DNA from: Branchiostoma floridae
Taxonomy: Eukaryota; Chordata; Leptocardii; Amphioxiformes; Branchiostomatidae
Assembly (NCBI RefSeq): GCF_000003815.2
Contig: NC_049995.1
Location: forward strand, 17,580,356 to 17,644,355
Direction: 5' to 3'
DNA: 64,000 nt
The notes beneath the pieces are model-generated. The model was not told where the DNA came from, ran no database searches, and worked only from the letters and a program-made list of their open reading frames with translations. Shown piece after piece: positions 605-63,965 of this stretch; position 1 is the stretch's first letter, and each line of letters opens with the position of its first letter. Both the position numbers and the translations under genes were made by a program.

Positions 605-2429
605 CTGACTCAGTCTTGTCTGCCTGCTGTACTGAAGACTGGACTGTCAGTCCCGTCAGTTCGAACTGAGACACGACAGCGGTCATGTCGGTGGTGACGG
701 GGCCGGGGGAGCTGAGGGTCTTCGCCGGTTGGAGGGGGAAATTCAGCCCGTTGTCTGCAGAAGAAACCGATAGAGTAATGCTAAAACAACACGTTAGAAC
801 CAGCGTTAGAACATAAAGTATACAATTTATTGCGATACAAGAAAATGTTCATTATACAATTATAGTAATAATAATGAGCAAAATGATAATTGTGCTAACA
901 ATAATAATAGAATTTTTGGCAGATGATGAAGATTTAAATACAATCCACCTCAGAAAACATCAAATAAACATAATTACTACCTGAGAGTATACATACAGTA
1001 CAAGATAGAGTCAGTACAATAGTTGCTTCATGATACAATTTAAAGAATGATTGAATATCCTTACATCCATGAAGTTTGAAGCTACACTCTTGTTTATCCA
1101 TGGGATACCTCGCCATACCGGGCACACACGTCAGGTAAAGGGCCCTCCTGTGGAGGGGGAAATTACCTTGTTGGCATAAGGAGCACTCGTACTTCTAATA
1201 CTGTAGCCCTTTGATATATATGCATAGCATTACATATATCGTAAGTGGTTCATACACATAACACAATTAGGTCCCGTTTTGTTGTCCTTTGAGGAATATT
1301 GAAGAAATTTTCTGAAAGACTCTTAAGATTCTAAAGATTGTCCCTTTTATATATTGAATTGTTTTATAGATATCATAGAGTATATAGATAAACATTGGGG
1401 ATGTTTTTACAAGTGTCTTTATCTTTTGCAGAGCATGAAGTGATTTCAGTCACAACTTAGCAACAGGGCAGGATTGCCACGTGTTGGTCAGCAGATACAA
1501 GAAGAAAACTCACGTCAGTTTGTGGACTAAGATTCCAGACGGATGGAGCCACATGCTGATGTCATGATTGTCTCCTCCTCTCCCTCTCTTGCTCTTCATC
1601 CTCCTAGTGACGTCAGCAGCCCTCCGCACGGCCGGTCCGAACGCCAGAGGAGGCGCCCACATCAAAGCTGCCGGCACTGGGGTCCATTTGGTGGTTAGGG
1701 CGCGGAGCCGGGGGTCTACCCAGGCCATGGTGTACTGTACCGTCACGGACAGGTTCTGTAAACAACAACAAAAACAACAACAACCAATTACATCAAAGGT
1801 GCCGGCACTGATATCGACCCAGGCCACGGTGTAATGTACCGTCACGGAGAGGTTCTGTAAACAACAACAACAACAACAACAACAATCACATCAGAGCTGC
1901 CGGCACGGGTGTCCAGCTGGTGGACAGGCCACGGAGACGGGGGTCAACCCAGGCCATGGTGTACTGTACCGTCACGGACAGGTTCTGTAAACAATAATAA
2001 CAACCCAAGTCAATAATTTTTAACCTCCTTAGGAAGCTCTGATTTTCAAAATGGGCTGAAGTTCTTTAATGCCTAAGTAAGGGAGTTTCTGGTATTTGAG
2101 AACCTTAGCCCATGTAGAAATTTGTGAATCAGCACTTCTGCTAGAAATTGTCTGCAAAAGAGACTAGATGAGGGAAACATTTCTCTGATTTTGAAGTACT
2201 GCTTAATGATAATAATAATGCTTGATAATAGCTTGAAGGCCAGGGAATAGGAGGGGAGTCCAAAGGCGGTGGGAACATGACACTGGTCTATATTCCCACA
2301 AAATGTCATGAAATTTCTGCTCGAGACCAAACAAGTGCAATGGATATCATAAGATACTGACCGCGTGCTCTTCAGACAGAGGTCCAACGTGAAGAATCGT
2401 CACTGTCGATGTCACTTCAAGTTTCTCTC
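605..2429 (-). CDS. Cys-loop (pentameric ligand-gated channel) ligand-binding domain, 4 exons
   Basis: Exons 2362-2429, 1514-1755, 1065-1147 and 605-754 join in phase. The first two give EKLEVTSTVTILHVG and then NLSVTVQYTMAWVDPRLR, matching the beta-1/beta-2 strands and W-x-D-x-RL of this family. The second also has LMWAPPLAF (loop A-like W-x-P) and HDISMWLHPSGILVHKLT. The third has the hallmark CVPGMARYPMDKQEC, exactly 13 residues between cysteines with YPMD inside. The fourth has YNGLNFPLQP and VVSQFELTGLTVQ. The transmembrane half would lie beyond the left edge. No vicinal cysteine pair of the nicotinic alpha type is seen in the part present. Family level is firm; ligand and ion selectivity cannot be told. 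Confidence 0.8.
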
Positions 2430-5400
2430 CTGTCAATGAAAAAAAAGAAGGTATCAAGGATGGTTTCAAACTGCAATACATTGGAAATATAAAAACGAAT
2501 ATAACGCTAGTTCACCTATTACCAGGGTTAACCTATATCCGTTATATCGACGGAAGGTGGTTTCTGATTGCAGATATTTTCAAAATATTACAGTTGAAAA
2601 CCACCATCCATCGACATCCATAGGACTGCTTGCCCTGTTTTTAGAGACAACGAATATAGGTTATCCTGCAGATAAAGAAGAACTAGTGTTAGGTTACCAA
2701 TTGAGCGGACAAAGGTGACTACCGTTACACAGAACACCGCCACATACCTACGCCAAATAGCAGTTATTCAAGCAACTGGATATGATTTAGCAAACGGTCA
2801 GACACTTCAGGTAGAACCCACTATCTTTCGTCGATGACGACTTCAGTGGTCACTGACGAAAGGTAGTGGGTTCTGTCTTAAACGTCTGAGTGTTTCCAAA
2901 ATCATATCCAGTTGGTATGAGTAACTGCTGTCTACTCTTATTACTGTAAATGCAGAAATGTTCGCGGTGGATTAACGTTTGCGGTTTTCGCGGTAACCAC
3001 TTTAACGCGAACTTAAAACCACCGCGAACATTTTTCTATCATGGTATTAGATTGCAGTCTATGGTGTTACCGCGAAATTAAAACACCACAAAAAGTCCTT
3101 TTTCCCGCTACCGCGAAATTAAATCCCCGGGAACTTAAATGCATTTACAGTACCTGGATACTTAAACCTTCATCGACCTGCAGCATACCTGTCTGGGGGC
3201 TGGCGTTGCTGTCGTACCCTCCGGGCATGCGCTGTCCGGATCTCCATCCGTCCCACTCTGCCTGTGTCGCGTTGTCCGCGCTCGCCAGCTCCGACTGGAA
3301 CGCCGAGACGTCTTCAAACATCTTCTTCAAGACGGTCTTCCTTTCTTCCTCCACTTCTGGCAGGACCGTGTCATCGAAAACTCCTGTGGTTGGTACCGAC
3401 GCTGATTCCGATCGCGAAGTGCTTTCCCCCGGTGTTGGCGACCTTGCCCCTAACGACGAGGTGATTTTGTTTGTGGCATGAGATGTACCAGGATGGGATG
3501 GGGTATACGTAGCAGCTGCTGTAGTAGCATCCGTAGCATCAGTAGTGGTAGTTTCAGTAGTAGTTGCTGCATCAGTAGAAGCAGCAGTGCTTGAAGGTGT
3601 AAAAGTGGTAGAATCAGTAGTTACAGTAGTAGTAACAACAGTAGTAGCTAATTCAGTGTAAGTAGCAGCATAAGTAGCGGCAGTAGTAGCTAAATCAATA
3701 GTAGAGGCTACACTAGTAGCAGCAGTAGAAGATGTAGTAGTAGTAGCAGTAGTATCAGCAGTAGTAGCTGGGTTAGTAGTGGTAGCTACAGTAGTATCAG
3801 CAGTAGTAATTGCAGTAGAAGATGAAGTAGCAGTAGTTTTAGTAGTAGTAGTAGTGATAGAAGCTGTAGTAGTCATTACCGCCGTTGTTCGTGTAGTCAT
3901 AGCCGTGGATGAAGGTAGGGCTATAGTAGTTTGGGCTGCAAATTGAAAATGAACAACAACACAGTTGAGGGAAATGTTCTCTGATTTTATGCATACAACA
4001 CGCAGAAAACACAGGGTAAGTCTATCGATTTGAGATACTCGATATTATGTAACTTGAGCGCACTAAATGTATAAGTTTGATTAGTAGACTATGACATGAA
4101 ATATTAGATATGATGTTGACCTTGACATTGCTGTGTCCCCTCCCACTGTCCGCCAGGGCCGCATGTCCTGATGACGTCACCTCCTGCGTCATGATATCCC
4201 GTGATGCACTTGTACCTGCATCTCTCGCAGGTGCATGCTGGGCCAGACTCGACAGTGTGGTCAACGGTTGGAGGCTCGGCACACGCTGTAAAGTCTTTCG
4301 GCAAAAAACGTATTGTTGATTGTCATACATTTGTGTAGAGTCACAGTAAATAAAATCTTCTTATAACAATTATCATTTTATATTCTAGAAAATGGATATA
4401 CTAGCCAGGCGTCTGGAGGCTTAAGAGCGAAGCTGAGTAGAGTACAATCATACTGTCTACTCATTTGTACTAGCCTCCTTCACCAGCCTCTCTGTTATTA
4501 GGCTTTGGTCACAGTAAGTTGTTGGGGGCATAAATATTTGTGGAACCACGTACAGATAGTATGACAACCAGGTTTTCGGAACCCTTCTCAGTTTTGTGTT
4601 CTCAATGTTGCACTTGCCTGTCCATTTTCTGATGTCGTCCATCTTTTCTGTTGTCTATACACAAAGAAAACAGTAACCTACCTGGACAACAGAAGCGGAC
4701 TTCGTAGTCCAAGCAGCTCCCGTCCGCCTGATGGGTATTGTTACAGAAAAAGCCAATTGTTGTGTCGTAGTAGACGAAGGTTTCCCCGGTGAGGGAGGCC
4801 TCCTGTTGGGTGGAGACGACGCGGGCGTGAACTCCTGTGGGATGGGGGCAGATCTGGCCGGGGTTTTCCCTACAGAGGTGGGACAGGAGTTCCCTGTCAC
4901 CTCTCCCACCCGAGCCATCTCGGTTGAACCAGACCGTCCAGTTGTCGCAAGGTTCTGAGATGGGAGAAAGTGCACAGAGTTTTATATCGATGGCTACACA
5001 CACCGGTGCAATGGCCGAGTGGGTAGAGTGTTTGCCTTGCATACGGTAGGTCGTGAGTTCGATCCCCGGCCGAGTCATACCAAAGACTTCAAAATGGTAC
5101 ATGCTACTTTCTCTGCTTAGCACTCAGCACTAATGAGGAAGAGTATGGAAGTTAAACACACATCACTACCAGCAGACCTGCCCCCTGCTGTAGTGACTTG
5201 CACAAATGTGTGGCCCAAGGGCTTCGAAGTGGAGATGGGCGCCACCCTACGCATCTTAGATGTATGGGCAAACTTTAACTTTTAACTACACACACGTTAA
5301 GATTACAATAAAAAAATAGATGTGATGTTCACCTTGACATTGCTGTGTTCCCTCCCACTCTCCATCAGTGCCGCATGTCCTGGTGACGTAACTCCCTGCG

Positions 5401-8016
5401 GCATTGGATCTCATGATGCACTTGTACGTGCAGATCTTCCCAGGCCAGTAGGGACAGGTACAGTCTGGGGCAGACTCGGCAGTGTGGGCAAGAGTTGGAG
5501 GCTCGGAACACACTGTAAAGTCTTTCGGCAGAAAAAAAAACAATGAATGTTACGCTCGGTCGTTTATTTGGTGGTTATAGGAACCGACCTTAGATTAAGG
5601 CACTGTGTCCACATTAGGGCGGGTCATTAACTCTTTATTATCATAAGAACTGTTCAATTGTCCTTCTAAAGCAACAGTTTCTTTCAGTCCCGGACAGCGA
5701 AGTTATGGAAATCTCTTGACGACTCTTGTTTCCCTCCTGTCTACAACTTATCAGCCTTCAAAACAATTTTCTGCCGCTATCTCCGTGCACAGTTATTTCC
5801 TTCTTTGTTCTTTTTACTTCTTAGTTCATTGCCTTGAAACGGTCTCTTGACCTTGCTTTGAACGACCTCGAAAAAAAAAGAAGTGGCTTATTACACATTG
5901 TGTACCACTATATATGAAATGCACCTACAAATTATGTTAAATTCCGTATTTCATTTTGATTTCGTTTACTACATGTATATGCAATGTGACCTCGATAACC
6001 TATGCTTATGAAAGGTGTTACGTCGCTTTTCTGTGCATAGAATCAACTTATGTAACAATAAGCAATATATGTATCTTGGACTATCTTTTCTTAATTATAT
6101 CGCACAGTCAAACCTACCCTTATTCCAATGGTTTCCTATAGTCAACAAAGTTGATGTTCTCGCATTCGGGAAAGTTGCATATTAAAAAACTATCGCCCGA
6201 ATCTGTGGCAATGACGAGTTAGTTTAATAATATTCCGAGTTGTTTGAGTAACTTCTATATTGTGAATATCTTACCTTGTGCACAGTTAAACCGGAACTGC
6301 CCATTCGGGTCGTTTGCCCCGTACCCCACGTAGTTGATTTCCTTGGGATTGTTGTCGGTTGTTGCCATGAACGGTTCAGTCTCTCCATCTCTCCCCACCG
6401 CTATGTACATGTTGTTGTTCCCCCTTTTCCAGCAGATCCAGAAGCGTCTAAAGTCGTTTGGCGACAGAATACCTGCATGGGGATAGAAATGGAATAATGT
6501 TTGATAGAACAAGGCTAGGGCCAATTCTGCAAGCATGAGTTAACACTGTCACTGTATCCAATTCCCATCATTTTAGAGTTTATAGACAATAGATACAAAA
6601 TCCGGAAATTCAGCTGCAGAACCAAAGTCAGCCGTCAGGAAGCGTCTTTCAACACACACAACACAAACAAGAGCTGAAACACACACGCGCACACACACAC
6701 ACATTCACATGAACACACAATACAGATTCAAACAGACACACACACTCCAACACACACACACAAGCGCACAGATACACAATCCAACACACACACAGAAGCA
6801 CACAGACACACAATCCAACACACACACACACAAGCACACAGACACACACACAGACACACACACTCCAACACACACACACAAATACGCACACACACAAATA
6901 CGCACACACACTCCAACACACAAGCATACCCACACAGACACACACACATACGCCACGGTGCATATGCACACGCACACACACCACACACACACACATGCAC
7001 TGAGACACACACACACACCAAATACTATGCCGCCATTTTTGTTGGAGATAATCAACTTGAGTATTTACCTGATGTATTTACTTTTTTCCAGCTTGGATTG
7101 ATGCTCGACCTGGTATTCCAGTCAATCCCGATGTGAACCTCATATTGCTGACCAACACCAAGGAACCTGTTCTCTGCAGACAGAGTGATGTGAATCCGGC
7201 CCTCACTACGTGCCTCGAACACAACAGGTTGGCGCACGGGTGAGAAGACGGTTTGCAAGTCAAATGCATAATTGCGCCACGAGTCGTTGTTGTAGAAGGC
7301 CTTTGTTTCTGTGCAGGATGCTGGACAAACGAAAATATGTATAACAACTCTACAAATCTTGACAAGCATGTTTAAATTTACAAAAATTGGAACTGTAACG
7401 TTAGATATGTACCTGTAGATGCCATATTTTCATTGTATTACAACAGCCTGTATTGGCAGGGTATACAACAAATATCATCAGTTAAATGTATCATTATAAT
7501 TTATTATTATTTAATCAAGAGTTGACAAATTGCATGGACAGGGTTTGATAAATTTGAGTTTGGTTGGAAGCCTTAAAAAGAAATCTTAAACCTTATAAGA
7601 AAAAATCTTAAACCCAGCAAAGTCTAATAGATGTCAACAAAGGGTTTTATTGATATTCTAAATGACGCGTAAATTCAAAATAAACAGCCTCTATGCGCTA
7701 ATGCTTTCACAATAGATGAGCAGGGAAATTTGTGAGTAATAAATTATTCACAAGCAGGTCTTTTCTTACACGGGAATTTCATTAGTCACGCAGGTAAAAT
7801 CACATCAAACATGGTGTAAAATACGTTTATGTGTGTGTGCGTGCGTGTACGTGTCAGTGTGTGTGTGTGCGTATGTGTGTCTGTGTGTGTGTACATATGT
7901 GTGTGTGTGTACATGTGTGTGTGTGTGTGAGTGTTTTTCTGTGTGTGTGTGTCTGTGTGTACATGTGTGTGTGTGTGTGTGTGTGCACATTGTGTGTGTG
8001 AGTGTGAGTGTTTTTC

Positions 8017-8059
<43 letters not shown>

Positions 8060-11000
8060 GTGTATGCTTGTTTGTGTGTGACGTTTTCACATTTTACATT
8101 TTGACAGAATGTTATGAAATTTATTTGATCTTAATACTACAGATATCTTTTTAAGAAACCTACTGTCTCTATTGCATCCCAAGAGCTCGACCCTCATGCT
8201 GATCCACTCAGACTGCCAAGTGAGAGGGTAGAACCGCACGTAACGTGCGTCTACCGGGTGGTCCAACAGGTTGGTTACGGGGGTGTCCTTGTCCGTGTTA
8301 CCTGGGAACACCTGCAAAACAGGTACAGGAGTTAACTCCGCTTCACCTTTATCCTTGGGGTAACCTATATCCGTTGTTTTTAAAGGGAGAGCATCTAGGT
8401 ACACCAAAACGACAGACGGTGTTTTAAATTCTAGCTATAGAACTGTAGTTATGTAGAAGCCATACTTTGTACCTTGTACAATTGTTGTGCGATAAAGTTA
8501 TTATTTAATGTTTTCAAACTATCGCAGTTAATTTTCAAATTTTATAGACACCATCCGTTTACCTGAAACATCAACATGCCATGTCTTTGAAAATGACGGA
8601 TATAAGTTACCCCACGGATAATGGTGAACTAGCGTTATATCGTCATTGGTTGGTTTCCATTTGGGACATCATAGTTCAAGCCCCGACCGGCCAAGCATCT
8701 ATGGTTGACTACTTTAGGTTAGGGACGTAACTCGGATATGGCGTTAGATGAAGTTCCTGTGTTTGAGGAGAGCCACACCTCGAGCACGTCATTAAAGAAC
8801 CCACCACACTTTTATCGTCAGTAAAAGACGACATGTCTTCAAACTGTTATTGTTATGTCAATGCAGAGATAAGTTGTACTTGAGCACCGACAACAACCAA
8901 ATCACTAATTACAAAATAAAGCAACAATTCTTTATTAGCTGGACTGTCAGTTCAAATGTTCTCCTTCCAAATATTTATGGAAAAATAAAAGAGAAAAGTA
9001 CAGTTTAAAGTTTAACGTTCTTCCAACAACAAAGTATACACGGACCACTGTCACCACGTTCAGGATCAATACTGTATATAACAGTAACTGTAGTATTGAT
9101 CAATACATCAGTATTGATTCTTTAGAATCAATACAAAATTTGATCAGAGCGCGTTGGAAGGAAGTTTGGCAATTTACTATATAATGATAAACACACATGA
9201 GCTTCCATCATGATGATAATAAGTGAAAAGTACTAAATATACGTAATGTCAGTGTCTGGGATACCTTTTCTTCGCCATTGTTGTGTCTGTAGATCTCCAA
9301 ACTGTCCTCCTCTATGCCATGCTGTAGTGCGAATGACGTCACCCACGCATCGTACCAGCCACGTCCCTGGATAATGGTGCCCGTCAGTCGCTTCACTTCT
9401 CCCAAATCCACCTGAAAAATTTGTCACGCAATATAATGCACATCATAGACGAAAATAGCTTCGAATAGATCTCCCTTTCCAGCCACTATCCTGGAGTATT
9501 GATTGGAATACTACGATTCTATTTTACACTGTAACCGTAGTTCACCTTTGTACGCAGGATACCTATATCCGTTTATTTTAACAGACTCTGAGTATCAGTT
9601 AGAGATATCAAGTGGTTTCAAATTACACTTTTTTCAAAACGGCATTTGAGGATATCAAGTCAACGGACGAAGGTTAGAAACTGCGATATTTTGAAAGTAT
9701 AGAGATTTTTAGGAGTTTGAAACCACCACATAATATTCCATCGCCTTGATAATTCCCTTCAAGCCCTGTTTGAAAACAAAACAATCGATATACTATAGGT
9801 GAACTTGAGCGTAATACATTATGAAACAATTTTAAACTTTATATCCAAACATAAAAATAAAGCCCTTACCAACAAGCTTTTGATCAGTCCTCTGATCATT
9901 TTTAAGTTCGAAAGCTAATTGTTGGTAAGCGCTTTATTTTTGTGTACGGTTATAAAGTTTTAAAAATTGTTTCATAATGTTGATTTACCGTCACAGACGA
10001 ACAAATACCCGAGTATAGTGTCAGTCTGTGTTATAACTGTTACAGTATATGGTCAAATGGGCAGACAAATGTTGGAATTGAAAAGAAGTCAATGTCCCAA
10101 CGTTAACTGTGAGCCGACACCTGTCAGTATCTCTAATATGTTAAGTTCATTAATATTGTGATATCCCTACCTGCAGCCACTGCCCGATGTTGTTATTTTC
10201 AGCTCGCCACGCCTTCATGTTCTTGTTTAACCGAGCGTAGTGAGACTTGTAATTGCCGTTAAATTCTGACGATGCGGTGATGCGTTCATCAGGTATGGCT
10301 CCAGATTCCATCCCAAGTGGACCATGGCAAGCTGGAAGACAAAGAGAGGAGTTACCCCTAAGATGTCTTGTGAAAAAGCACATGTGGAAAGAGTGATTTC
10401 TACACCGTGTAGTCTCAGGGAAGAGAAACAATAACCTGTAGCTTAAATACTGTGGCTTTTTAAGACATTCTTCACTCCAGAGAAGAGTGTTATTTTCTAA
10501 AAGACAACATTTTTATGAACACTGGCCAAGTTCAATGTCAAGTGGCCGATACAATTACGTTTTGGGATTCAGAAAAATATTACTAGCAGAAATGGAACAC
10601 TCTCCTCTGGAGTACATTAAGTCTTAAAGCGTCATTCTTTAACTAACTCAGGTTTGGGCATGAATTGTAAGAACCGAATACTGATGACTTCCAGATCAAC
10701 TTTGCCAGCGTAAAGTTTTAATCCTGCAAAGTAGAAATATATTTCAAAGTAATGTCAGAATGTCCTGAAATCGCTTCACAACAAAATAAAAGAGTGTCAT
10801 TTTCTAAATGCCTTGGAAATATGAATTGGCTGTTTCCACAACAGACGAGCCGGGTAATTTGTGAGCAATAATTTATTCATAAGCAGGTATTATCATTACA
10901 CAGGAAATGGCATTGGTACACAGGTAACAGTCGTCATCAAACATTCTGTAAGCTTCCGTTACAGAATGCTTGATCTGTCAGATACAGAATTTTTATAAGG

Positions 11001-14000
11001 TGTAGGCTAAAGGGTTAACACAACCTCCGTGACATTTTGCACACAAGTTAGTACAACAGACTCCGCTGGTATGACCTGGTGCAAAGAATGACCCATGAGT
11101 ATTGACAATTGGCCAAGAAAGGTCATGAACTTGTCTGTAGTGGGTCAGAATCCTCCTAGCCACCTCAAGATGAGATGGGTAGACAGTGTCAAGGAAGATA
11201 TTCGAAACTGAACATGCAAAAAGCCAAATATTCTTCTGGAGATCAGCAATAAGACCTAATGGCATCCCGTAATGTCCAACCCTTGCATGACACGGAACAA
11301 TCAATGCTAATCCTGGTAGTGAGTGAATCATCAAGGAATACACTAATACTACCAGGATTACATGCTGTATTCTTCCTTTCACACGAGAGGGGGAATGAGC
11401 CAGAACGCCGTCTGAATAAAAAATCTTTGTATATTCCAGCTGGATATTTGTAGTGCATTCTAGAAATTCTAACTCGTCCACAGTTGTGTACCTGTAAATG
11501 TACTACTTTGTACCTTGTACAATTGTTGTGCAATAAAGTTGTTGTTATTGTTGTCATTGTGCGGGCCAGGGGCTGAATTGCGAGGAGACTACAATAGGCG
11601 AGGATATAGAAGAACTTGCACGACAATTGTACATGGTACAATGTATGGCCACGACTATTACACAAAGTACAAATTAGATGTATAGAATGACTTAACATCA
11701 TAATTAACATAATGATAAGGGCTAATACAAGTTTTTGATATTTGTGACAAGGGTCTGGAGCGGCTGCAATTTGGCGCCACTCAGGTGACCTCAAAAGTAG
11801 TTGCGGTTATTACTAAGTATGAAATTATAAAACATTCCACTATAGCACACGTATACATAAACTGCTAGCTCACCTTCTTCGCAGTACTTTCCTTTCCATC
11901 CAGCCGGGCACGAACAGGAGTACAGCCCAGTGCCCGACCCCTCTGGGGTTACTGTTCCGCCATTTTTACAGCTTCCTGACAAAAATAAGTACAATGGAAT
12001 GGGTTGAATTATATTGTAGCATCTTCACATCCATTGTTTTTTCAGTTTGATCACTTCCCTGTCTAATCGTAGGAGTTAGCACTGCACGTACGACACATTG
12101 TATCACTAAAAACAAAACAAAAAGTTATTTCTAGTGTTGGAAAATATAGTTCACCTTTTTCCAGGCAACACTGAACATGTCGCGTATAATAATTAAAAGG
12201 CCCAATAATGAACCATAATGTAACACGGGGTACATTGTACGTTGCATTGTTAGGCTATGTCACCATTCGTGACAAGTAGCATGAAATAAGGGTTGGGGTA
12301 AGAGAAGCATTCGCAAGCAAATAATAATTGAAAAAATAAAGATTAGAAACAGAATGAAATAAAAAAAAAAACGATGAAAGAAAACTAGAGGAGAGGACAA
12401 CAATTGTGATATTTTCCTTCTATTCAACTCCACCCTGCCTTTAAGTTATCAATTCGAGCAGGTAAATATGATATCATTTGGCATAATGCGCGCTGAACCA
12501 AGGAATATTTTAGTGCGATGGTGTTATCAATTATGATAATATTTGTAAGGCGATATATTGCATACCGTGATCTAGTTGACAAATGAATGGATGCGTCTGG
12601 CTGCATGGCAGATCAATCCACGCAGACCCACTATACCCGATGGCAGCACAGTCTTCTTCATTGTTCACATTGTTTGGTTCGCCGATTCCCCAGAAGCCTG
12701 TTGACTCCAGGGTTTGTCCGTCCTCAAACACCCAACGGCCTTCGGTGTCGATGTCATTCAGGCCGATCCAGTGGATTCCGTTTCCTAGTCCGACGATAAA
12801 GTCGTTGGTCGCGCTGTCTCTCGGCATGGCCAACAGTCCCCCGTCTGAGGCACAGGTCTCTCTGGCCTGAAAGTAGGTCTCCCCCCCAGCAAAGTGCTTG
12901 TAGCAAACCCCGTTAAAACGACTGTAGCCTGGCTTTGGACACCCTGTAGTGTAGAGGGAAGAAAAAAATTTGTTATTTATTAAAATCTTTAGTTATTAGT
13001 AAGCATCACTCTTCGACTAAATAGGTGCGAAATGTAGGTTCCTTGCTTAGGAGGTAAATAGAGAGGTCAGAAAGTAGGAATTGTATATCAAAAGTGGGGC
13101 TACCAATAGTTAATAAATGATAATTTCATTAACGCATGTTTACAAAATTCCAATCTTTGTTGCAATCTATGGCAAATGTAACGTCTTTCAAGTACTTGTC
13201 TTGTAGTATTTGATTCGTTTGATTCGTTTGACACAAATGATGTACCAAACACACTTACATGGGTAATCAGTAGGCCTGATCATCACCATTACTTTCTTCA
13301 ATGAGTAACGGTACCCCCTCCAGGTTTTCCAGACGATGCCTTGAGCATGCTCGCAATTGGCGTTACATCCGGCCAGATACTGCCCGTTTAACATGGCGTA
13401 ACCACAGCTTGGCGGGTACCACCAACCACCCTTTCCATTTACGGCCGCACAGCTGTAAATGTTGTTGTCGTTGTCTTGGTCCTTGGTGCTGAACTTCTGG
13501 TTGTTCATGTTGAACCGCCCGTTGTCGTAGTTTGACGTTATGCTATCCGTGGCGTTGCCGCTGTACCCACTGACTGTAGCCGTGTACGTGCTTTCTGCAT
13601 TTGAATGAATGAATGAATGAATGGATGGATAGATGGATGGATGGATGGGTGTGTGGGGGGGGATGGATGGATGAATGAATGAATGAATGTATGAATGAAT
13701 GAATGAATGAATGAATGAATGAATTTGGGATACCAAATCGACAGGCGGTGTTTTCAAATCGCAATATTTTCCAAAAATTGCAGTTATTTTCAAAATGTTG
13801 CACCGTCCGTTGACTTGATACATCTAACTGCCATGTTTTTAAAAATGACAGATAAAAGTTACCCCACGGATAAAGGTAAACATACCTGCATCTCTCACAG
13901 AAAACTCGCTGTACTTCGCGAACATACTCTCTCCTTCCCAGTCCTCCAGAGAGATGTACAGTTCGTGACTTTGCTGTGCGGTGAGGCGGTGTAAACGGTC

Positions 14001-15629
14001 CAGTCCGAGCCAGAACTCTCCGCTGACGTTCCCGAATCCCTGCAAGTAATGGTTCGAAAGGGGAGTTAGAGAGGCAATATACGAGAAGAATGTACAACCC
14101 CATCCTTAACAGGAAAGGAGACCTACGGATCGAACTTTCCGGCACTTGGGACCTCCCCCCCCCCCCCCCAAGAGACAATATTAGTAATCTCTAGGCTTCT
14201 CTAGGCAGATGTGGCATAAGGAGTTTAGCTGGCCAAGGAGTGTTCTGAGCCACCAGGGCTCAAAACACTTCTCACCCAGCTAAACTCCTTATGCCACCGG
14301 TACATCTGCCTAGAGATTAAATATTTAGCTCCTGTACTCCAACAAAATAGACCTTGGTTTGCCTATTGGATCATATTGCCGGCCGAGTCCCCTGGCATAC
14401 TATTCAGTCTACTTGGCCAATTTCCATTACTTGCCCATCGATCCGCGGAGCCTGGTAGAGGCTATAAGTAACTGTTATTTGGCGTACCTGCACGTACTGG
14501 TCCCAGGTGTTGTCGAACGGCACCGACCCGTCTTGCCGTCGCTGTATGACCGTCCACCCGCCGCCATCCGTGTCCATGTCACAGGACACCTGGAACGGTT
14601 CCGGGTAGCCAACAGAGTACGTGCCGCTTTCCTGTACCCCGAGAATGTACAGATCCGCACAGTTCTGGGGAGCCACCCTTCCTACAGAAGGACACAAGAA
14701 AAGTCAACATTTTTCAAGATATAAAAGACGGCGATCGCGATGCGCTCTCACTGCGAACTAAATATGATATGTGTAGCCTCTGATTTCATACTGGGTATAT
14801 AGTACAGCATGTAAAAGTGTGACTGAGAGGACAGCAAAACGCACAAAGTGTAAAAAAAATCGTTTCTTTTCTCATGTTGTTGAGCGATCTGTCAAATTCT
14901 ATGTCGCAGAGAGAGCACAGCGAGAGCGCCGTCCTATTGGATATGGGATATTATTGATTTGACAATTATTAACAACATCCTTAATATTAACTTAAGTACC
15001 CATCATGACAAACTAAGTGTCTAAAGTCTTGTTGTACAGCGACGCAAGTCTGTGGCTAGAGTCTATATTTCATAAGATATCAATGTAATGCACTTTTACA
15101 GCCCGATGATCACTGAGGTTAGGGCCAACATCAAATACTTTGCTTCCTTAAACTAAGCAAGCTATGAAATGCTTTTCAGATTAATAAGGTGTAATTCAAA
15201 GATACAAAAATCTAAACGACCAATGTGAATACGAGTTACCCGACTTGAAAAAAAAAGTCTTGAGTACTTCGAGTTCTTGTGATTAACACCATGGAACACT
15301 GCAATATTTTTGTATAAAACTGAAGATTATTCAATGAACATAGAGACTGAATCCGGATCGATCATGGTTGAAACAAGCCAAACAAGAGAAAGAATCACTC
15401 ATTGGCTTAATTCTAAACTATTAGACAGGACAATTTTTAAAACTAAATGGCGGATGAAATTACAAACAGATCTTAACAAAAGCTGCAAACACTCGCACAA
15501 TAATGGAACAAAACTCGACACATTTATAAAGTACAGAAAACATTTCTTACCGGACGGTGGTTCAGAAGAGTCGACTAGAAAAATGGCAAACGCAACGGCA
15601 ACAGCCAAGCCTAGACCCAACCTGGCCAT
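605..15629 (-). CDS. Chimeric multidomain lectin/mucin protein with Cys-loop receptor ligand-binding domain (3' end outside window)
   Basis: Nineteen coding exons can be joined with GT-AG borders and matching phases: 15551-15629, 14488-14681, 13886-14039, 13259-13594, 12566-12943, 11874-11975, 10171-10331, 9265-9411, 8164-8311, 7069-7320, 6275-6472, 5333-5512, 4682-4954, 4121-4285, 3189-3935, 2362-2429, 1514-1755, 1065-1147, 605-754 (about 1350 residues). Order: signal peptide, fibrinogen C domain, C-type lectin, EGF, F5/8C, Methyltransf_FA, sushi, WxxW, sushi, Thr-rich stalk, pentameric channel ligand-binding domain. Nearly all module borders are phase 1, as expected from exon shuffling. No transmembrane segments or stop codon are seen before the left edge, so it may be a channel subunit with an adhesive ectodomain or a secreted protein with an acetylcholine-binding-protein-like end. 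I know of no named gene with this architecture. Not verified by transcript; fusion of two neighbouring genes is contradicted only by the phase match. Confidence 0.75.
1759..1990 (-). repeat. Two degenerate extra copies of a 3' splice site plus exon start (exon 1514-1755)
   Basis: Upstream of the real exon start at 1755, two more copies of 'CAG|AACCTxTCCGTGACGG' occur with exon starts at 1854 and 1984. The 1984 copy reads on through WTPVPA and then stops; the 1854 copy is internally deleted after W-V-D. CAA-rich runs separate them. They look like tandem duplications of an intron/exon edge. Confidence 0.8.
2502..2691. mobile_element. MITE, 'CGCTAGTTCACC' family copy 1
   Basis: Terminal inverted repeats AACGCTAGTTCACC and its complement near 2680, followed inside by AACCTATATCCGT. 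Same family as copies at 8338, 9534 and 33060. Confidence 0.65.
2764..2925. repeat. Imperfect palindrome
   Basis: Arms AACTGGATATGATTT / AAATCATATCCAGTT and an inner stem GAACCCACTATCTTTCGTC / GACGAAAGGTAGTGGGTTC. A partial relative lies near 54730-54780. Probably a fold-back MITE in an intron. Confidence 0.6.
2942..3152. mobile_element. MITE, 'TACTGTAAATGCA' family copy 1
   Basis: Ends TACTGTAAATGCA and TGCATTTACAGTA; interior has repeated CGCGGT / ACCGCG blocks. Related copies at 16991-17196 and, degraded, around 52010-52325. Confidence 0.65.
3189..3935 (-). CDS. Thr-rich mucin-like stalk plus N-terminal helix of the channel domain
   Basis: A 747-bp exon starting in phase 1 and ending in phase 1 at ACAG|GTATGC. 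About 150 residues are Thr/Ala/Ser-rich (for example TTTTTKTTATSSSTAITTAD), a probable O-glycosylated spacer built from imperfect ACT/GCT-like codon repeats. The last ~65 residues change character: FDDTVLPEVEEERKTVLKKM, then MPGGYDSNASPQTG, resembling the N-terminal helix and 'yD...rP' start of pentameric channel ligand-binding domains. A MITE lies just outside the donor (2942-3152). Confidence 0.8.
4121..4285 (-). CDS. Sushi/CCP domain 2
   Basis: A phase 1-1 exon: ACAEPPTVDHTVESGPACTC, CRYKCITGYHDAG, IRTCGPGGQWEGTQQCQ. Paralogous to the exon at 5333-5512. Sushi domains are common partners of receptor-clustering proteins (for example LEV-9 in C. elegans and Hikaru genki in flies, which act at cholinergic synapses), which is notable given the downstream Cys-loop domain. 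Confidence 0.88.
4682..4954 (-). CDS. WxxW domain exon (mucin/CILP type)
   Basis: One 273-bp phase 1-1 exon fits the WxxW module found in gel-forming mucins and CILP. It shows CDNWTVWFNRDGSGGRGD, then CRENPGQICPHPTGVHAR near the middle, GFFCNNTHQADGSCLDYEVR and FCCPG at the end. The W-T-V-W pair and the closing C-LDYEVRF-C are the diagnostic parts. A tRNA-derived SINE lies just upstream in the intron. Confidence 0.85.
5007..5278 (+). mobile_element. tRNA-derived SINE (family A)
   Basis: The head has tRNA-like A and B boxes (TGGCCGAGTGGGTAGAG and GAGTTCGATCCC) but not a foldable complete tRNA with acceptor stem. The body (GTGTGGCCCAAGGGCTTCG and GAGATGGGCGCC) recurs at 28541-28630, 45243-45558 (reverse) and 49620-49730 (reverse). 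Confidence 0.7.
5333..5512 (-). CDS. Sushi/CCP domain 1
   Basis: A phase 1-1 exon with the complement-control-protein pattern: CSEPPTLAHTAESAP, then CTCPYW, CTYKCI, TRTCGTDGEWEGTQQCQ. Cysteines and the WEG tryptophan are in place, with an insertion around CTCPYWPGKIC. Closely similar to the second sushi exon at 4121-4285 (same ends, EPPT and WEGTQQCQG), so the pair arose by exon duplication on either side of the WxxW exon. Confidence 0.88.
6275..7320 (-). CDS. Methyltransf_FA (farnesoic acid O-methyltransferase-like) domain, 2 exons
   Basis: Exons 7069-7320 and 6275-6472 (phases 1-1-1) encode a domain of the PF12248 type. Recognisable parts are VFEARSEGRIHITLSAEN, YEVHIGIDWNTRSSI, then FRRFWICWKRGNNNMYIAVG and NGQFRFNCAQG. 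Despite the family name, these extracellular modules in animals have no demonstrated methyltransferase role that I know of, so a binding or structural role is more likely. The intron between the exons contains a long AC-rich microsatellite. Confidence 0.75.
6649..7018. repeat. AC-rich microsatellite
   Basis: Interrupted (CA)n/(ACAC)n tract of about 370 bp in the intron between the two Methyltransf_FA exons. It creates long spurious reading frames on both strands. Confidence 0.95.
7829..8080. repeat. TG-rich microsatellite
   Basis: (TG)n with interruptions, about 250 bp, in the intron between the last F5/8C exon and the Methyltransf_FA exons. Confidence 0.95.
8164..10331 (-). CDS. F5/8 type C (discoidin) domain, 3 exons
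   Basis: Exons 10171-10331, 9265-9411 and 8164-8311 (phases 1-0-0-1) join into one discoidin domain of about 150 residues. It opens with ACHGPLGMESGAIPDERITA and SSEFN, has RAENNNIGQWLQVDLGEVK across the first junction, VTSFALQHG and LEIYRHNNGEEK in the second exon, and ends with VTNLLDHPVDARYVRFYPL and MRVELLGC. Such domains bind membranes, sugars or matrix proteins. MITE copies occupy the introns, including the stretches just upstream of 8311 and 9411. Confidence 0.9.
8338..8636. mobile_element. MITE, 'CGCTAGTTCACC' family copy 2
   Basis: Right end GGTGAACTAGCGTTA preserved, left end degraded (TCCGCTTCACCTTTATCC), with AACCTATATCCGTTG inside. Begins in the intron next to the 8311 exon border. 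Confidence 0.55.
8455..8510 (+). mobile_element. Retroposon 3' end fragment
   Basis: TTGTACCTTGTACAATTGTT followed by a poly-A-signal-like GCGATAAAGTTATT. The same tail occurs at 11509-11545 with AATAAAGTTGTTGTT, so it is the 3' end of a dispersed retroposon. Family not identified. Confidence 0.45.
9534..9812. mobile_element. MITE, 'CGCTAGTTCACC' family copy 3
   Basis: Left CGTAGTTCACCTTTG with CCTATATCCGTT inside; right ATAGGTGAACTTGAGCG. Diverged ends. Confidence 0.5.
10985..11560 (+). other. Intronic stretch with retroposon 3' tail
   Basis: In the intron between the EGF and first F5/8C exons. It ends with TTGTACCTTGTACAATTGTT and AATAAAGTTGTTGTT as at 8480. The rest of the stretch gives long frames on the minus strand but no domain I recognise. 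Probably a decayed retroposon. Confidence 0.35.
11874..11975 (-). CDS. Short EGF-like exon with four cysteines
   Basis: A 102-bp phase 1-1 exon encodes SCKNGGTVTPEGSG, then LYSCSCPAGWKGKYCEEG. The C-x-C and GWKGKYC signatures are those of EGF modules, but only four cysteines occur. In EGF numbering C2, C4, C5 and C6 are present and the C1-C3 pair is missing. The remaining pairs could still form. It sits between the C-type lectin and the F5/8C domain. Confidence 0.75.
12566..12943 (-). CDS. C-type lectin domain exon (EPN type)
   Basis: A single phase 1-1 exon carries a whole C-type lectin domain: GCPKPGYSRFNGVCYKHF at the start, WIGLNDIDTEGRWVFEDG in the core, then GIGEPNN, NNEEDC and WIDLPCSQTHPFICQ. 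EPN is the motif that in known family members goes with mannose-type, calcium-dependent binding. The usual WND is WID here, so one calcium ligand (D) is kept while N is replaced by I; binding therefore needs testing. The canonical cysteines are present. Confidence 0.9.
13259..14681 (-). CDS. Fibrinogen C-terminal (FReD) domain, 3 exons
   Basis: Exons 14488-14681, 13886-14039 and 13259-13594 (phases 1-0-1-1) encode a full fibrinogen-related domain. The first has NCADLYILGVQESGTYSV and GGGWTVIQRRQDGS; the second has FWLGLDRLHRLT; the third has the gamma-chain-type core YSGNATDS, FSTKDQDND, GGWWYPPSCGYAMLNGQY and GIVWKTWRGYRYSLKK. The aspartate-rich DQDNDN loop is the usual calcium site. In ficolins and related lectins this domain binds acetylated sugars, so a glycan-recognition role is likely but is inferred. 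A GAAT/GATG microsatellite lies immediately upstream of the third exon. Confidence 0.9.
13600..13722. repeat. GAAT/GATG tetranucleotide microsatellite
   Basis: (GAAT)n, (GATG)n and (GAAT)n again, right next to the 3' splice site of the third fibrinogen exon (13594). Length variation here could affect splicing of that exon. Confidence 0.95.
13730..13882. mobile_element. Partial MITE, 'CGCTAGTTCACC' family
   Basis: Contains AAGTTACCCCACGGATAAAG as in the copies at 8610 and 33250. One end missing. Confidence 0.45.
14182..14321. mobile_element. Palindromic MITE (hairpin family copy 1)
   Basis: TAATCTCTAGGC...GGCATAAGGAGTTTAGCTGG and its complement ending GCCTAGAGATTA. Shares the TTGGCC / AGCT core with hairpins at 57968 and 58455. 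Confidence 0.65.
15551..15629 (-). CDS. Exon 1: signal peptide
   Basis: The start ATG at 15629 opens MARLGLGLAVAVAFAIFLVD, a classic secretory signal (short basic start, hydrophobic core, then SSEPPSG). The exon ends in phase 1 at a GTAAG donor. The next exon has a matching 2-nt start and is the fibrinogen domain, so the protein enters the secretory pathway. No convincing TATA box is visible in the 100 bases upstream. Confidence 0.75.
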
Positions 15630-20160: not shown

Positions 20161-23100
20161 CTGATTGATTGAATGACAGATTGACAGCCTCACCTTACTC
20201 CTAGGTTTGCCCCCCTGCCGTATGCTGTTGTACTGGTCCAGTGTGAAGTCCTTAACTCTGAGGTAACCACTCTGGGAGATGGCCACAGCCTGGTTAGGGT
20301 AACACAGGGAGGCTGCCGCTCCGGCAAGGGTGGTGGAGTAGACAGCCTTCTTTATCAAACCTCCTGTAGAGTAGGAACAGAGTAGTTAGTAACAGGAAAC
20401 AGAGTAGTTAGTAACAGAAGTGTACAGGTTAGGGTAACACAGGAAGGCTGCCGCTCCGGCAAGGGTGGTGGAGTAGACAGCCTTCTTTATCAAACCTCCT
20501 GTAGAGTAGGAAACAGAGTAGTTAGTAACAGAAGTGTACAGGTTAGGGTAACACATGTACAAGAAGGCTGCAGCTCCAGCAAGGGTGGTAGAGTATACAG
20601 CCTTCTTAATCAAACCTCCTGTAGAGTAGAGAACAGAGTAGTTAGTAACAGAAGTGTACAGGTTAGGGTAACATAGAGAGGCAGCTGCTCCGGCAAGAGT
20701 AGTGGAGTAGACAGCCTTCTTAATCAAACCTCCTGTAGAGTAGGAAACAGAGTAGTTAGTAACAGAAGTGTACAGGTTAGGGTAACACATGTACAGGAAG
20801 GCTGCAGCTCCAGCAAGAGTGGTGGAGTATACAGCCTTCTTAATCAAACCTCCTGTAGAGTAGGAAATGAAAAACAGTACTTGATAACATTTGTCAGTTT
20901 ACAAAATTAATGTTTATCTTCAGTCTTCCCTGATGGAGAACAATAGTGAGACAATAAACCAGATAGTGATTTAGTGAGTGAGTGAGTTTTAGGTTAAGAC
21001 TTTAACTCTAACAGAAGAAGACAAAGCGTAACATTAAAAAAAATTTGTTGTTACACTGATCAAGATGTACAAGATGATGGACAAGATGATAACGAAAGCG
21101 GTCCTCGTCGACTCGACGGACGAACAACACAACAACTACACTGGTCTGTTTCTGCTAAATTTGATTTCCTTGGCGTCGAGCTGTTTGTAGCCAGGTAGTG
21201 ATGAATAATCCTATATTGAAAGCACTTTAACATAGTTAACTTACCTCTGGCCCCCAGTACTAGTCCTGTCAGACCTGAGAGTGTGATCACACCGAGCCGT
21301 GGGAAGAACCCTTCTTCACTTTGGACATACTCCAGTCCATCTGCAACAAAGTCATATCATTAGTGCTGCATACCTAACGCCAAGGAGATTGATAAAAGCT
21401 CCTTGCCAACACTAACATCATGCTGCCGCGCCGCGTGCCTGCGAAGCTGGTGTGTTACGCCGAAGGGCGGTTAAACCGGCTATATAGATACAGATACAGA
21501 AGCTGGTATGTTACGCCGAAGGGCGGTTATACCAGCTATATAGATACAGATACAGAAGCTGGTGTGTTACGCCGAAGGGCGCGCTTATACCGGCTATATA
21601 GATACAGATACAGAAGCTGGTGTGTTACGCCGAACTTCAAGGTGGTCATACCGGCTATATAGATACAGATACAGAAGCTGATGTGTTACGCCGAAGGGCG
21701 GTTATACCGGCTATATAGATACAGATACAGAAGCTGGTGTGTTACGCCGAAGGGCGGTTATACCGGCTATATAGATACAGATACAAAGCTGATGTGTTAC
21801 GCCGAAGGGCGGTTATACCGGCTATATAGATACAGATACAGAAGCTGGTGTGTTACGCCGAAGGGCGGTTATACCGGCTTTATAGATACAGATACAGAAG
21901 CTGGTGTGTTACGCCGAAGGGCGGTTATACCGGCTATATAGATACAGATACAGAAGCTGGTGTGTTACGCCGAAGGGCGGTTATACCGGCTATATAGATA
22001 CAGATACAGAAGCTGGTGTGTTACGCCGAAGGGCGGTTATACCGGCTATATAGATACAGATACAGATACAGATGCTAACACTAACATCAGTTAGGTCGAG
22101 TCGCATTTTCAAACTGGTGCCATGCCATAGAAATGTATACGTAAAAATATGCACAAACAATGCCCACGACTATTCTCTTTATATCTTGTGCAATTTGTTG
22201 TCTTTTAAGTTTTATATCATACTTTTTGTTTCCCAAAGCTGCCTGGCTGCATGGGCCTTGGTTTGGAAATGTGATGAAAGCTTTACTTGATGGAACAGAA
22301 CATCGGGGACTAACTATGGTGTATACAGACATAAAATATCTAAATCACAAAACATTGAATAGATCAAACATAAGACAAAAGTTGTTTGTTCCAACTCCAT
22401 CCCATCAGTGGCATTAAACATTTTTGATAAATTGAATAACACCTTGGCTTCTGAAAAGTGAGACAAGAATGATTTGAAACAAAGAAAATTCTACATAATT
22501 ATATTACTCACCTGTGGTTTTCTTCTCTGCAATTCTGTATTTGTCAACAACATACACTCTTGTACCCTGCAATAGTGACCAATGGTTTCTATTAGTACTG
22601 GCAATGTAGTTGTGTTCTTGTGAAAGGCTCTTAACACGTCTTTTCCCACTCCAGCCAGGTGTGAAAAAATGGGGACCTGACTTTGGTTGGGAGGGGGGGG
22701 GGGGGTTAAAGGCGGTAGAAGTAGAGGGATGGGCTCAACCTACCAATACCGCAACCTAGACACAGTGGATAACAACACATTGCCCCTATGTACAGGTTCA
22801 GAAAGGGAATGGAACCCTCACAAACCCCTTTGTACAGCCTCAAGTCAAGGACTATGTGTAAATCAACCACTTAAGAAGACTTTCCTCACTCCACCCAGGT
22901 GTAAAAATAGGTACCTGACTTCGGTTGTTGAGGTAAAAAGTGGTAGAAGGACAGTGATTTCTCTACCTTTTAGTACTAAGCCCCAGACACACACACTCAC
23001 TCACTCACTATCCGGTTTAGCGTCCGTTCTTCCCTGATAAAAATCCACTGCTCCTAGGTAAGGCCTCTAGGACTATGGAACTTTACCTACATGTAAAGAC

Positions 23101-62000: not shown

Positions 62001-63965
62001 GGTCAGTTCTTAGGGTCACAGGTCAGTTCTTAGGGTCACAGGTCACCAAGTACTAAAGGTCAGTTCTTAGGGTCACAGGTCAGTTCTTAGGGGGCAGGTC
62101 ACCAAGTACTTCAGGTCAGTCCTTAAGGTCGCAGGTCATAGGTCAGTTCTTAGGGGGCAGTTGTACTTCAGGTGTGTTCCTAGGGGGGATGCTAGGGGTG
62201 GATCCACATAGATCAAGTTTCTGAACTTCTATTCAGCCTGTCAAACCAGTTTCATTGCGTACAACTTCTTCGGGGGATAGAGCCTTATTGACACAAGTTT
62301 GTGAAGCTCTCTCTCTCTTAGCCTGATTAAATCTCGCTTATAGCAGCCCGCCAAACATCCGCCGGCCCTCTATTTACTGGTTTCCATGGTAATGTGGGCT
62401 CAACCTTAATCCTGGCCTACCATTGGTGTTGAAACATTCCACAACAGTTTCCTCAGCTTATAGCTAGTGGAGCACAAACTCCGCGGGAGGGGCCAGTTAC
62501 AGCCCTGGACAGCGGAGTTTGTGTTACACAGACTATCTCTCTCTGTTCATTCTGTTATATCTGACTCTTTCCCTCCTTCCATCCAGTGAACAACACTCTG
62601 CCTATCTAGCCATGGTGGGTTCCCTGGTCAGTATAGTGCTGGTGGTGCTGTTTATTCCTTTATATGTGACTCTTTCCTTCCCTCTCTCCAGTGAACAACA
62701 CTCTGCCTACCTGGCCATGGCGGGTTCCCTGGTCAGTATAGTGCTGGTGGTGCTGTTTATTCCTTTATATGTGACTCTTTCCCTCTCTCCCTCCAGTGAA
62801 CAACACTCTGCATACCTAGCCATGGCGGGTTCCCTGGTCAGTATAGTACTGGTGGTGCTGTTTATTCCTTTATATGTGACTCTTTCCCTCCTTCTCTCCA
62901 GTGAACAACACTCTGCCTACCTGGCCATGGCGGGTTCCCTGGTCAGTATAGTACTGGTGGTGCTGTTTATTCCTTTATATGTGACTCTTTCCTTCCTTCT
63001 CTCCAGTGAACAACACTCTGCATACCTAGCCATGGCAGGTTCCCTGGTCAGTATAGTACTGGTGGTGCTGTTTATTCCTTTATATGTGACTCTTTCCCTC
63101 CCTCTCTCCAGTGAACAACACTCTGCCTACCTGGCCATGGCAGGTTCCCTGGTAGTATAGAACTGGCGGAGCTGTTTATTCCTTTATATGTGACTCTTTC
63201 CCTCCTTCTCTCCAGTGAACAACACTCTGCCTACCTGGTCATGGCGGGTTCCCTGGTCAGTATAGTACTGGCGGTGCTGTTTATTCCTTTATATGGGACT
63301 CTTTCCTTCCTTCTCTCCAGTGAACAACACTCTGCATACCTAGCCATGGCGGGTTCCCTGGATCAGTATAGTACTGGAGGTGCTGTTTATTCCTTTATAT
63401 GAGACTCTTTCCCTCCCTCTCTCCAGTGAACAACACTCTGCCTACCTGGCCATGGCAGGTTCCCTGGTCAGTATAGTACTGGTGGTGCTGTTTATTCCTT
63501 TATATGTGACTCTTTCCCTCCTTCTCTCCAGTGAACAACACTCTGCCTACCTGGCCATGGCAGGTTCCCTGGTCAGTATAGTACTGGTGGTGCTGTTTAT
63601 TCCTTTATATGTGACTCTTTCCCTCCTTCTCTCCAGTGAACAACACTCTGCCTACCTGGCCATGGCGGGTTCCCTGGTCAGTATAGTTCTGGTGGCGCTG
63701 TTTATTCCTTTATATGTGACTCTTTCCCTCCCTCCCTCCAGTGAACAACACTCAGCCTACCTTGCCATGGCGGGTTCCCTGGTCAGTATAGTACTGGTGG
63801 TGCTGTTTATTCCTTTATATCTGACTCTTTCCCTCCCTCTCTCCAGTGAACAACACTCTGCCTACTTGGCCATGGCAGGTTCCCTGGTCAGTATAGTCCT
63901 GGTGGTGCTGTTTATTCCTTCTAACACCAAGGCTGGGAAAAAGGACTCAGATTCCAAGAAGGAGG
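59044..63965 (+). CDS. SLC22A18: SLC22A18-like major facilitator transporter (5' part; continues beyond right edge)
   Basis: Six exons join in phase: 59030-59111 (first in-frame ATG at 59044), 59537-59663, 60448-60545, 61071-61216, 61765-61897, 63847-63965, the last with a GTAAG donor near the window end. Features: a cytosolic start rich in Gly/Ser, first helix QRKLVLLMTHLNIAMYSTCF, YGYLQTTFAVVQLCGGPLFG, the MFS motif A as GRFGDLFGTRSA, LVLAFSAAAMSYGLLGMAEG, SRLPSFLMHSMQGAQMIVTD, then LGLSYGIGMIVGPFLGG and SAYLAMAGSLVSIVLVVLFI before a charged loop (STKAGKK-like SNTKAGKKDSDSKK). The AQM-TD block and the order of helices match SLC22A18 (organic cation transporter-like, an imprinted gene in mammals). 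Substrate unknown. Intron before the last exon holds a 13-unit copy array. The true first exon may lie upstream. Confidence 0.85.
59968..60332. mobile_element. PIF/Harbinger-like MITE copy 3
   Basis: GGCCACACCAATTTAATTTC and its complement; TGA on both flanks. In the transporter intron before exon 60448. Confidence 0.8.
61898..62170 (+). repeat. Tandem copies of the 5' splice site and exon end (exon 61765-61897)
   Basis: GGTCAGTTCTTAGGGTCACA repeats many times after the real donor TTCAG|GTCAGT; some units include GGTCACCAAGTACT and TTCAGGTCAG, copies of the exon end (QVTKYF) with its donor. Unit lengths vary (about 17 to 55 bp). Confidence 0.8.
62560..63846 (+). repeat. Tandem array of 3' splice site plus membrane-helix exon, ~105-bp unit, 12 extra copies
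   Basis: Exon-start copies at 62587, 62692, 62797, 62902, 63007, 63112, 63216, 63321, 63427, 63532, 63637, 63742 before the real one at 63847. Each unit has a pyrimidine tract, TCTCCAG and then SEQHSAYLAMAGSLVSIVLV with VLFIP, followed by LYVTLS, which is the intron part read as protein. Most steps are exactly 105 bp (35 codons); one is 104 and one 106. The last five acceptors (63427 to 63847) are all in frame and open. Confidence 0.92.

Follow-up and report, generated by a model that had tools for sequence, protein, structure and literature searches.

The gene examined here, which we call C17w, lies on the minus strand near the left edge of a 64,000-nucleotide window of the Branchiostoma floridae genome (contig C17, positions 17,580,356-17,644,355; the genome searched comprises 513 Mb in 431 contigs). 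It belongs to an amphioxus gene family marked by a module of eight cysteines (8-Cys) spliced into loop C of a Cys-loop receptor. Judging from its sequence, it probably encodes a subunit of a pentameric Cys-loop channel, likely anion-selective, whose mosaic recognition ectodomain, on a Thr-rich stalk, would sense a surface of glycans or matrix or hold the channel to it. A prediction made earlier from the letters of the window (hereafter the original prediction) had joined such recognition modules to a Cys-loop ligand-binding domain (LBD). The predicted anatomy of this fusion is strong: the fusion appears to be real, wider than first reported, and an unusual channel.

Exon Chain and Domains of the Window Gene

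Within the window C17w comprises 19 minus-strand exons, which we re-derived with AG acceptors and GT donors (exon 1 opens with the start codon). Their phases are consistent, no internal stop interrupts them, and the product measures 1,352 aa. All borders of the chain that the original prediction had drawn from signal peptide to LBD were reproduced, its junction coordinates 3935, 3189 and 2429 among them. The joined protein, submitted to Pfam in two pieces, matched Fibrinogen_C across joined exons 2-4 (3.8e-66), F5_F8_type_C (5.2e-27), Lectin_C (1.3e-20), Methyltransf_FA (FA; 1.6e-19), Mucin2_WxxW (5.1e-19) and Neur_chan_LBD (PF02931; 8.2e-13, 48.7 bits against a cut-off of 26). Neur_chan_memb (PF02932) was matched at 1.1e-14, the second piece including transmembrane (TM) exons from outside the window. 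A separate Pfam scan placed the second sushi repeat barely above threshold (21.8 bits, cut-off 20.7); the first sushi repeat and the EGF exon received no Pfam call and were assigned by eye. From the domain list of the original prediction, Pfam thus recovered FReD, C-type lectin, F5/8C, FA, WxxW, LBD and one sushi repeat, including the four profiles it expected in the joined protein (Fibrinogen_C, Lectin_C, F5_F8_type_C and Neur_chan_LBD), while EGF and the other sushi repeat stand by eye only.

The coordinates that follow are window positions on the minus strand, every exon being placed by the exon chain. Exon 1 (15551..15629) holds the start codon and signal peptide (MARLGLGLAVAVAFAIFLV...), also seen in hydropathy scans. 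The FReD occupies exons 2 (14488..14681), 3 (13886..14039) and 4 (13259..13594), followed by the C-type lectin domain (CTLD) of exon 5 (12566..12943), all with Pfam support. This CTLD has an EPN motif and WID in place of the usual WND. After the EGF-like module of exon 6 (11874..11975; by eye), Pfam places the three parts of F5/8C in exons 7 (10171..10331), 8 (9265..9411) and 9 (8164..8311), and the two parts of the FA domain in exons 10 (7069..7320) and 11 (6275..6472), the latter also supported by the genome search for FA exons. Exon 12 (5333..5512) is the first, sushi-like repeat assigned by eye; the Mucin2_WxxW domain of exon 13 (4682..4954) and the second sushi repeat of exon 14 (4121..4285) were called by Pfam.

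Exon 15 (3189..3935) carries both the stalk and the N-terminus of the LBD in one open exon; of the 184 residues of the stalk, 73 are Thr and 24 are Ser. The LBD continues, with Pfam support, through its first strand in exon 16 (2362..2429; VTILHVGPLSEEHA), strands with WVDPRL and the loop-A region WAPPLAFG in exon 17 (1514..1755), and the Cys-loop in exon 18 (1065..1147). There the C-x13-C domain with YPMD described in the original prediction is present and matches PF02931, its two cysteines 13 apart around a central P-x-D (CVPGMARYPMDKQEC). Exon 19 (605..754) contributes the strands leading to loop C and ends in phase 1, matching exons outside the window. Partial copies of exon 17 lie just upstream of the intact exon (window 1654-2013), with three 70-nt copies in all at spacings of 99 and 130.

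Transmembrane Exons Left of the Window

The window coordinates of the gene end at the window edge, and the gene model continues to about 6.6 kb to the left (locus L009). Directly adjoining the window is a run of 4,143 N (L009 5714-9856), located between exon 19 and the 8-Cys exon. Beyond it, on the minus strand and in phase with the exon chain, come the 8-Cys exon (L009 5205-5357), the TM1-TM2 exon (L009 4518-4732), the TM3 exon (L009 4051-4158) and the TM4 exon with the stop codon (L009 3284-3469). The four transmembrane helices that the original prediction had proposed to look for on this side are in place, in phase and closed by a stop. The full chain would measure 1,572 aa, or 1,521 aa if the 8-Cys exon is left out. 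Since the TM1-TM2, TM3 and TM4-stop exons follow in phase, C17w reads as a channel subunit, placed in the anionic group by sequence, and not as a secreted protein resembling the acetylcholine-binding protein.

In a plain hydropathy scan three segments stand out, namely the signal peptide, TM3 and TM4. Searching PDB sequences with the receptor part returned 120 distinct sequences at E <=0.001; among the 60 best shown, GABA-A beta-1 came first (7.2e-27), with GluCl and glycine receptors also high. The link to cholinergic receptors made in the original prediction gained no support, the best solved relatives by sequence being GABA-A beta, GluCl and glycine receptors.

Selection and Functional Sites

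Comparison of C17w with its tandem paralog, C17t, gave a dN/dS of 0.29 (bootstrap 0.20-0.39) across the 454 codons of the receptor part, which as a whole is under purifying selection. The values were 0.18 for the 8-Cys exon, 0.59 for the lectin domain and 0.71 for the signal peptide. In an alignment of 11 family genes the Cys-loop (11/11), the Arg before TM1, the TM1 proline, the Arg at the start of M2 and the mid-M2 Leu are kept. The residue directly before the M2 Arg is Ala or Pro, and never Glu, in all 11 (VNARVQLG in the window gene), and an acidic residue stands four places before this Arg in seven of them. Ala or Pro at this position is a feature of anion channels. The inner end of M2 thus has the sequence features of the anionic subgroup, namely Ala/Pro-Arg with no Glu directly before the Arg.

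Across the family the W-x-P of loop A is succeeded by P, A, S or H, the corresponding GABA-A motif being W-V-P-D; the window gene has WAPPLAFG. Its loop C is split by the 8-Cys exon, and no aromatics are found at the junction. Both the W-x-P-D of loop A and the aromatic loop C of a classical transmitter site are consequently missing from C17w. We treated that site as not strictly defining; orphan Cys-loop members presumably vary there. Because the Cys-loop, the pre-M1 Arg and M2 are kept while loop A is altered and loop C interrupted, we infer that the elements coupling the LBD to the pore have been retained and the transmitter site remodelled.

A Gene Family with an 8-Cysteine Exon at Loop C

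Searching the genome with the TM part gave a list of 101 exon matches. We read 13 loci in sequence, 11 from the top of this match list and two on C4 chosen for nearby FA exons. The 8-Cys exon is present in 11 of the 13 (C17w, C17t, C19, C2, C5, C9, C137, two C6 and two C4 loci) and stands directly before the TM1-TM2 exon in every carrier. It was not found at C7 and C14, the other two loci read, both of which resemble ordinary glycine receptors by eye. The preceding exon, LBD5, was identified in nine of the 11 carriers; it was not found in C9 and C137, where the 8-Cys exon sits between LBD4 and TM1-TM2. Aligned with GABA-A, the insertion falls at the tip of loop C, which in classical receptors shuts over the bound transmitter. 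Six cysteines and one glycine (C1, C8, C15, C27, C30, G35 and C37) are invariant among the 11 aligned exons. Neither this loop-C exon nor the spread of the gene family over several loci was within view of the original prediction.

Two more genome searches, this time with 8-Cys exons, gave nine and five matches, of which six and five, respectively, are located close upstream of a listed TM1-TM2 exon; the remaining three of the nine are weak (E 0.06-0.25) and lie away from such exons. These searches were not exhaustive, one of them missing C17t, and they add five loci for which we have coordinates only (two on C2 and one each on C14, C5 and C6). No known family could be assigned to the 8-Cys exon: for the 11 members Pfam at E <=1 returned five families, the best being Toxin_12 at 0.012 in two of the 11 (15.8 bits for the first member, cut-off 21), and the PDB matches were two GAL4 chains (0.41 and 0.67), taken as chance. 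The C6 genes (L014-L017) combine the loop-C 8-Cys exon with a classic-looking anion-channel M2 (PARVCLGVTTVLTM) and show no upstream module match; they are possibly the ancestral form of the family.

Extracellular Modules Upstream of the Receptor Exons

The regions upstream of the family genes were searched with 18 module queries at E up to 1e-3. Extracellular modules were found upstream in nine of the 11 8-Cys genes, seven of which had not been picked for their modules, and every listed match is on the sense strand. At C7 and C14 the 18 queries gave no module match; a looser search found one weak F5/8C piece at C14 (E 0.006). The modules differ between family genes. According to Pfam, C17t has a C-type lectin, F5/8C and Thr stalk, C4a a SUEL lectin, sushi (at the cut-off), EGF (below the cut-off), FA and TSP1, and C4b FA and TSP1. 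The C9 modules (L028-L029, on the same strand as the receptor gene) are, by Pfam on unspliced open frames, FA, Frizzled, SUEL lectin, F5/8C, pentraxin and F5/8C. C137 has nine TSP1 matches, one checked with Pfam, and C5 has 13 EGF matches, three so checked. The remaining two were read by tblastn only: C19 with a lectin, 12 EGF-like matches (two partial or without the usual cysteines) and lectin pieces, and C2 with 12 EGF matches, of which one contains a stop and another is short.

Most module exons tested are of phase 1-1, the usual signature of exon shuffling. The LBD exon accepts phase 1 in C17w, C2, C5, C19 and C137, and phase-1 module donors fit these acceptors in C2, C5, C19 and C137. We also counted FA exons within 25 kb upstream of a channel TM exon on the same strand, finding 6 of 85 (58 TM exons; 0.1 expected) in samples thinned by hand from 123 FA and 101 TM matches. 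Controls gave none on the opposite strand and three downstream. Given this downstream count and the fact that four of the six upstream cases belong to one cluster, we place little weight on the statistic.

One Gene or Two

A scan that recovers the true signal peptide of C17w found no signal-peptide-like ATG between its sushi 2 and LBD2. The tandem paralog C17t has a signal-peptide exon closely similar to that of C17w, about 4 kb from its LBD, and receptor exons 67-100% identical to those of C17w, in the same order from LBD to TM and with no N run between them; the modules between signal peptide and receptor differ. The lack of an internal signal-peptide-like ATG in C17w, together with this arrangement of signal-peptide exon, differing modules and receptor part in C17t, favours a single gene. 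A scan of other loci found hydrophobic ATGs before the LBD of C17t (11, eight of them in a poly-Leu repeat), C4b (one), C5 (two, in frame with LBD2) and C2 (two), and none in C4a, C19 and C137. In C17t, L010 2487-3378 and 877-1729 contain seven matches to the TM3 exon and five to the TM4 exon, in tandem. Judged by eye, a single TM3 copy, the one furthest downstream, is intact as far as its donor; the copies are either decayed duplicates or alternative exons.

Further Repeats in the Window

Two other repeated tracts occur in the window. At 20300-20898, five copies of 78 nt (83-99% to the reference, spacing 114-135) form a tandemly duplicated coding-like unit, several of them in one open minus-strand frame (20386-20898; LIKKAVYSTTLAGAAAFLYMCYPNLYTSVTNYSV). 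At 62438-63200, seven copies at a spacing of 105 bp fall largely in one open plus-strand frame with a hydrophobic segment (62468-63160; SSEQHSAYLAMAGSLVSIVLVVLFIPLYVTLSL).

Alternative Readings and Proposed Mechanism

A number of observations weigh against a single chain that unites modules and channel. In C17w the run of 4,143 N separates exon 19 from the 8-Cys and TM exons, and TM1 and TM2, unflagged by plain hydropathy, both rest on alignment. In C17t a second copy of the signal-peptide exon (L009 252-287), frame-broken by eye and split between two frames, lies between the lectin and F5/8C exons, so that the lectin may belong to another unit; a run of 100 N also precedes the stalk, whose acceptor is unfixed. 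At C5 an ATG with a hydrophobic stretch runs in frame into LBD2 and is a possible alternative start. The two C6 genes carry the 8-Cys exon and match none of the 18 module queries, cysteines are missing from, or a stop interrupts, certain EGF copies of C19 and C2, and the C9 modules are known from unspliced frames. Finally, the LBD exon of C4a and C4b starts in phase 0, leaving the TSP1 exon with no direct in-phase join; a bridging exon of 20 nt would fit in C4b, and C4a yielded none.

The broken copy of the signal-peptide exon in C17t and the ATG that C5 has in frame with LBD2 led us to give slightly more weight to a two-gene reading, in which a gene for a secreted lectin/mucin protein stops at the Thr exon and is followed by an ordinary Cys-loop receptor gene, and slightly less to our favoured reading. 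The low complexity of the Thr exon and the hydrophobic ATGs ahead of the LBD in C17t, C4b, C5 and C2 agree with such a pair; yet a single open exon holds both the stalk and the start of the LBD, C17w is free of signal-peptide-like ATGs from sushi 2 to LBD2, and the modules and LBD of other loci are paired with matching phase, which makes two genes rather improbable. A decaying gene, or a non-conducting subunit retained for adhesion alone, is improbable as well: loop A is altered and partial duplicated exons surround exon 17 and the C17t TM3/TM4 exons, but all exons are open, purifying selection acts on the receptor part as a whole, and the middle Leu of M2 and the pre-M1 Arg are kept. The original prediction had left open whether the product is a channel or a secreted effector like the acetylcholine-binding protein, devoid of a channel. 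Inside the window only the LBD is visible, as a secreted effector would have it, but the exons for TM1-2, TM3 and TM4 with the stop are in phase, and TM exons come after the LBD in C17t too. We rejected the secreted protein on these TM exons downstream of the LBD and regard it as very improbable; the channel half of the proposal fits, and modules and receptor appear to lie on one chain.

Two further explanations accept the fusion and differ in what the modules do. They might form a built-in synaptic or junctional organiser that clusters the channel in cis, the channel itself answering GABA, glycine or a similar transmitter, perhaps in a heteropentamer. The modules overlap with receptor-clustering proteins (LEV-9, Hig, MADD-4) in sushi and TSP1, pentraxin and EGF modules also occur in proteins of this kind, and GABA-A and glycine receptors are among the matches of the receptor part, whose gating elements are kept. 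However, a loop A without the usual P-D and a loop C with the 8-Cys insert render a classical transmitter site doubtful, and lectin-type modules are frequent; we see the organiser as possible, if somewhat unlikely. Also unlikely, in our estimate, is a pattern-recognition channel of epithelial or sensory cells, its anion current being gated when the lectin modules capture microbes or food particles. FReD, CTLD, SUEL lectin, F5/8C and pentraxin modules are common in innate recognition, and all of them, including an EPN-bearing CTLD, occur in the family; the lectin domain, moreover, diverges faster than the receptor part between the tandem copies (dN/dS 0.59 against 0.29). On the other hand, the long Thr stalk offers no obvious route for force or conformation to reach the LBD, and members in which only TSP1 or EGF was found look non-microbial.

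We return to the favoured reading, a surface-anchored or surface-sensing channel. According to this reading, five subunits would assemble into a pentamer whose ectodomains extend well past the membrane on a stalk that is probably O-glycosylated. The modules would bind a glycan-, lipid- or matrix-coated surface, be it the animal's own tissue, a partner cell or a microbe, and so fasten the pentamer to it. At loop C the 8-Cys module may act as a cap that binds a protein and takes the place of the transmitter pocket, or of the transmitter as trigger, with the Cys-loop, the pre-M1 Arg and M2 relaying the signal to a chloride-type pore or setting its resting activity. That surface binding gates the pore and that it only positions the channel are possibilities to which we give about equal weight. 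More broadly, and tentatively, exon shuffling may have built a eukaryotic family of pentameric channels with adhesive or lectin ectodomains and a disulfide-rich module at loop C, in which an anion channel responds to surfaces and not to a small transmitter.

Known Systems and Significance

With the anionic Cys-loop receptors (GABA-A, glycine, GluCl) the window gene has in common the LBD, the Cys-loop, four TM helices and Ala-Arg at the start of M2. It differs from them in the modules and stalk that precede the LBD with some 1,100 aa of extracellular sequence, the 8-Cys module at loop C, the altered loop A motif and a short M3-M4 loop. The acetylcholine-binding protein is a Cys-loop LBD without TM helices; it shares the LBD with C17w, whereas our gene model has all four helices. 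Amphioxus multi-domain lectins (fucolectin, CTLD, CUB and APEC proteins) likewise present lectin modules in unusual combinations; a word search of the paper describing them found neither "ligand-gated" nor "neurotransmitter".

Sushi and TSP1 modules act on Cys-loop receptors at synapses in LEV-9, Hikaru genki, Hasp and MADD-4, which are separate proteins that cluster these receptors (PMC9083331). The original prediction's comparison with LEV-9 and Hikaru genki, as separate proteins, was a fair one: such proteins have no receptor domain or channel, while in C17w the channel exons appear in phase on the same chain. Extra N-terminal extracellular domains before the LBD, as in C17w, are described for DeCLIC and other prokaryotic pentameric ligand-gated ion channels. 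In DeCLIC, a bacterial channel, two N-terminal jelly-roll lobes affect gating kinetics (PMC12664993). These lobes contrast with the FReD, CTLD, F5/8C, FA and WxxW of the window gene, which are known from Pfam profiles only. A 2022 paper states that no such N-terminal domains are seen in homologs from eukaryotes. A 2016 inventory of the superfamily mentions Branchiostoma, and in its main text the terms "lectin", "fused", "N-terminal domain" and "additional domain" are absent (PMC4795631). A fusion of lectin modules with a Cys-loop channel is undescribed among the matches listed, which cover titles and abstract starts in the open-licence literature, subscription papers and protein databases lying outside; automatic annotations of these channel genes may exist.

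If the reading is correct, this chordate family would run counter to the published generalisation that eukaryotic members of the channel superfamily are without extra N-terminal domains. It would also mean that animals rebuilt the Cys-loop channel fold so that it senses contact or glycans, or anchors itself. The family supplies concrete constructs for asking how a distant ectodomain gates or positions a pentameric channel.
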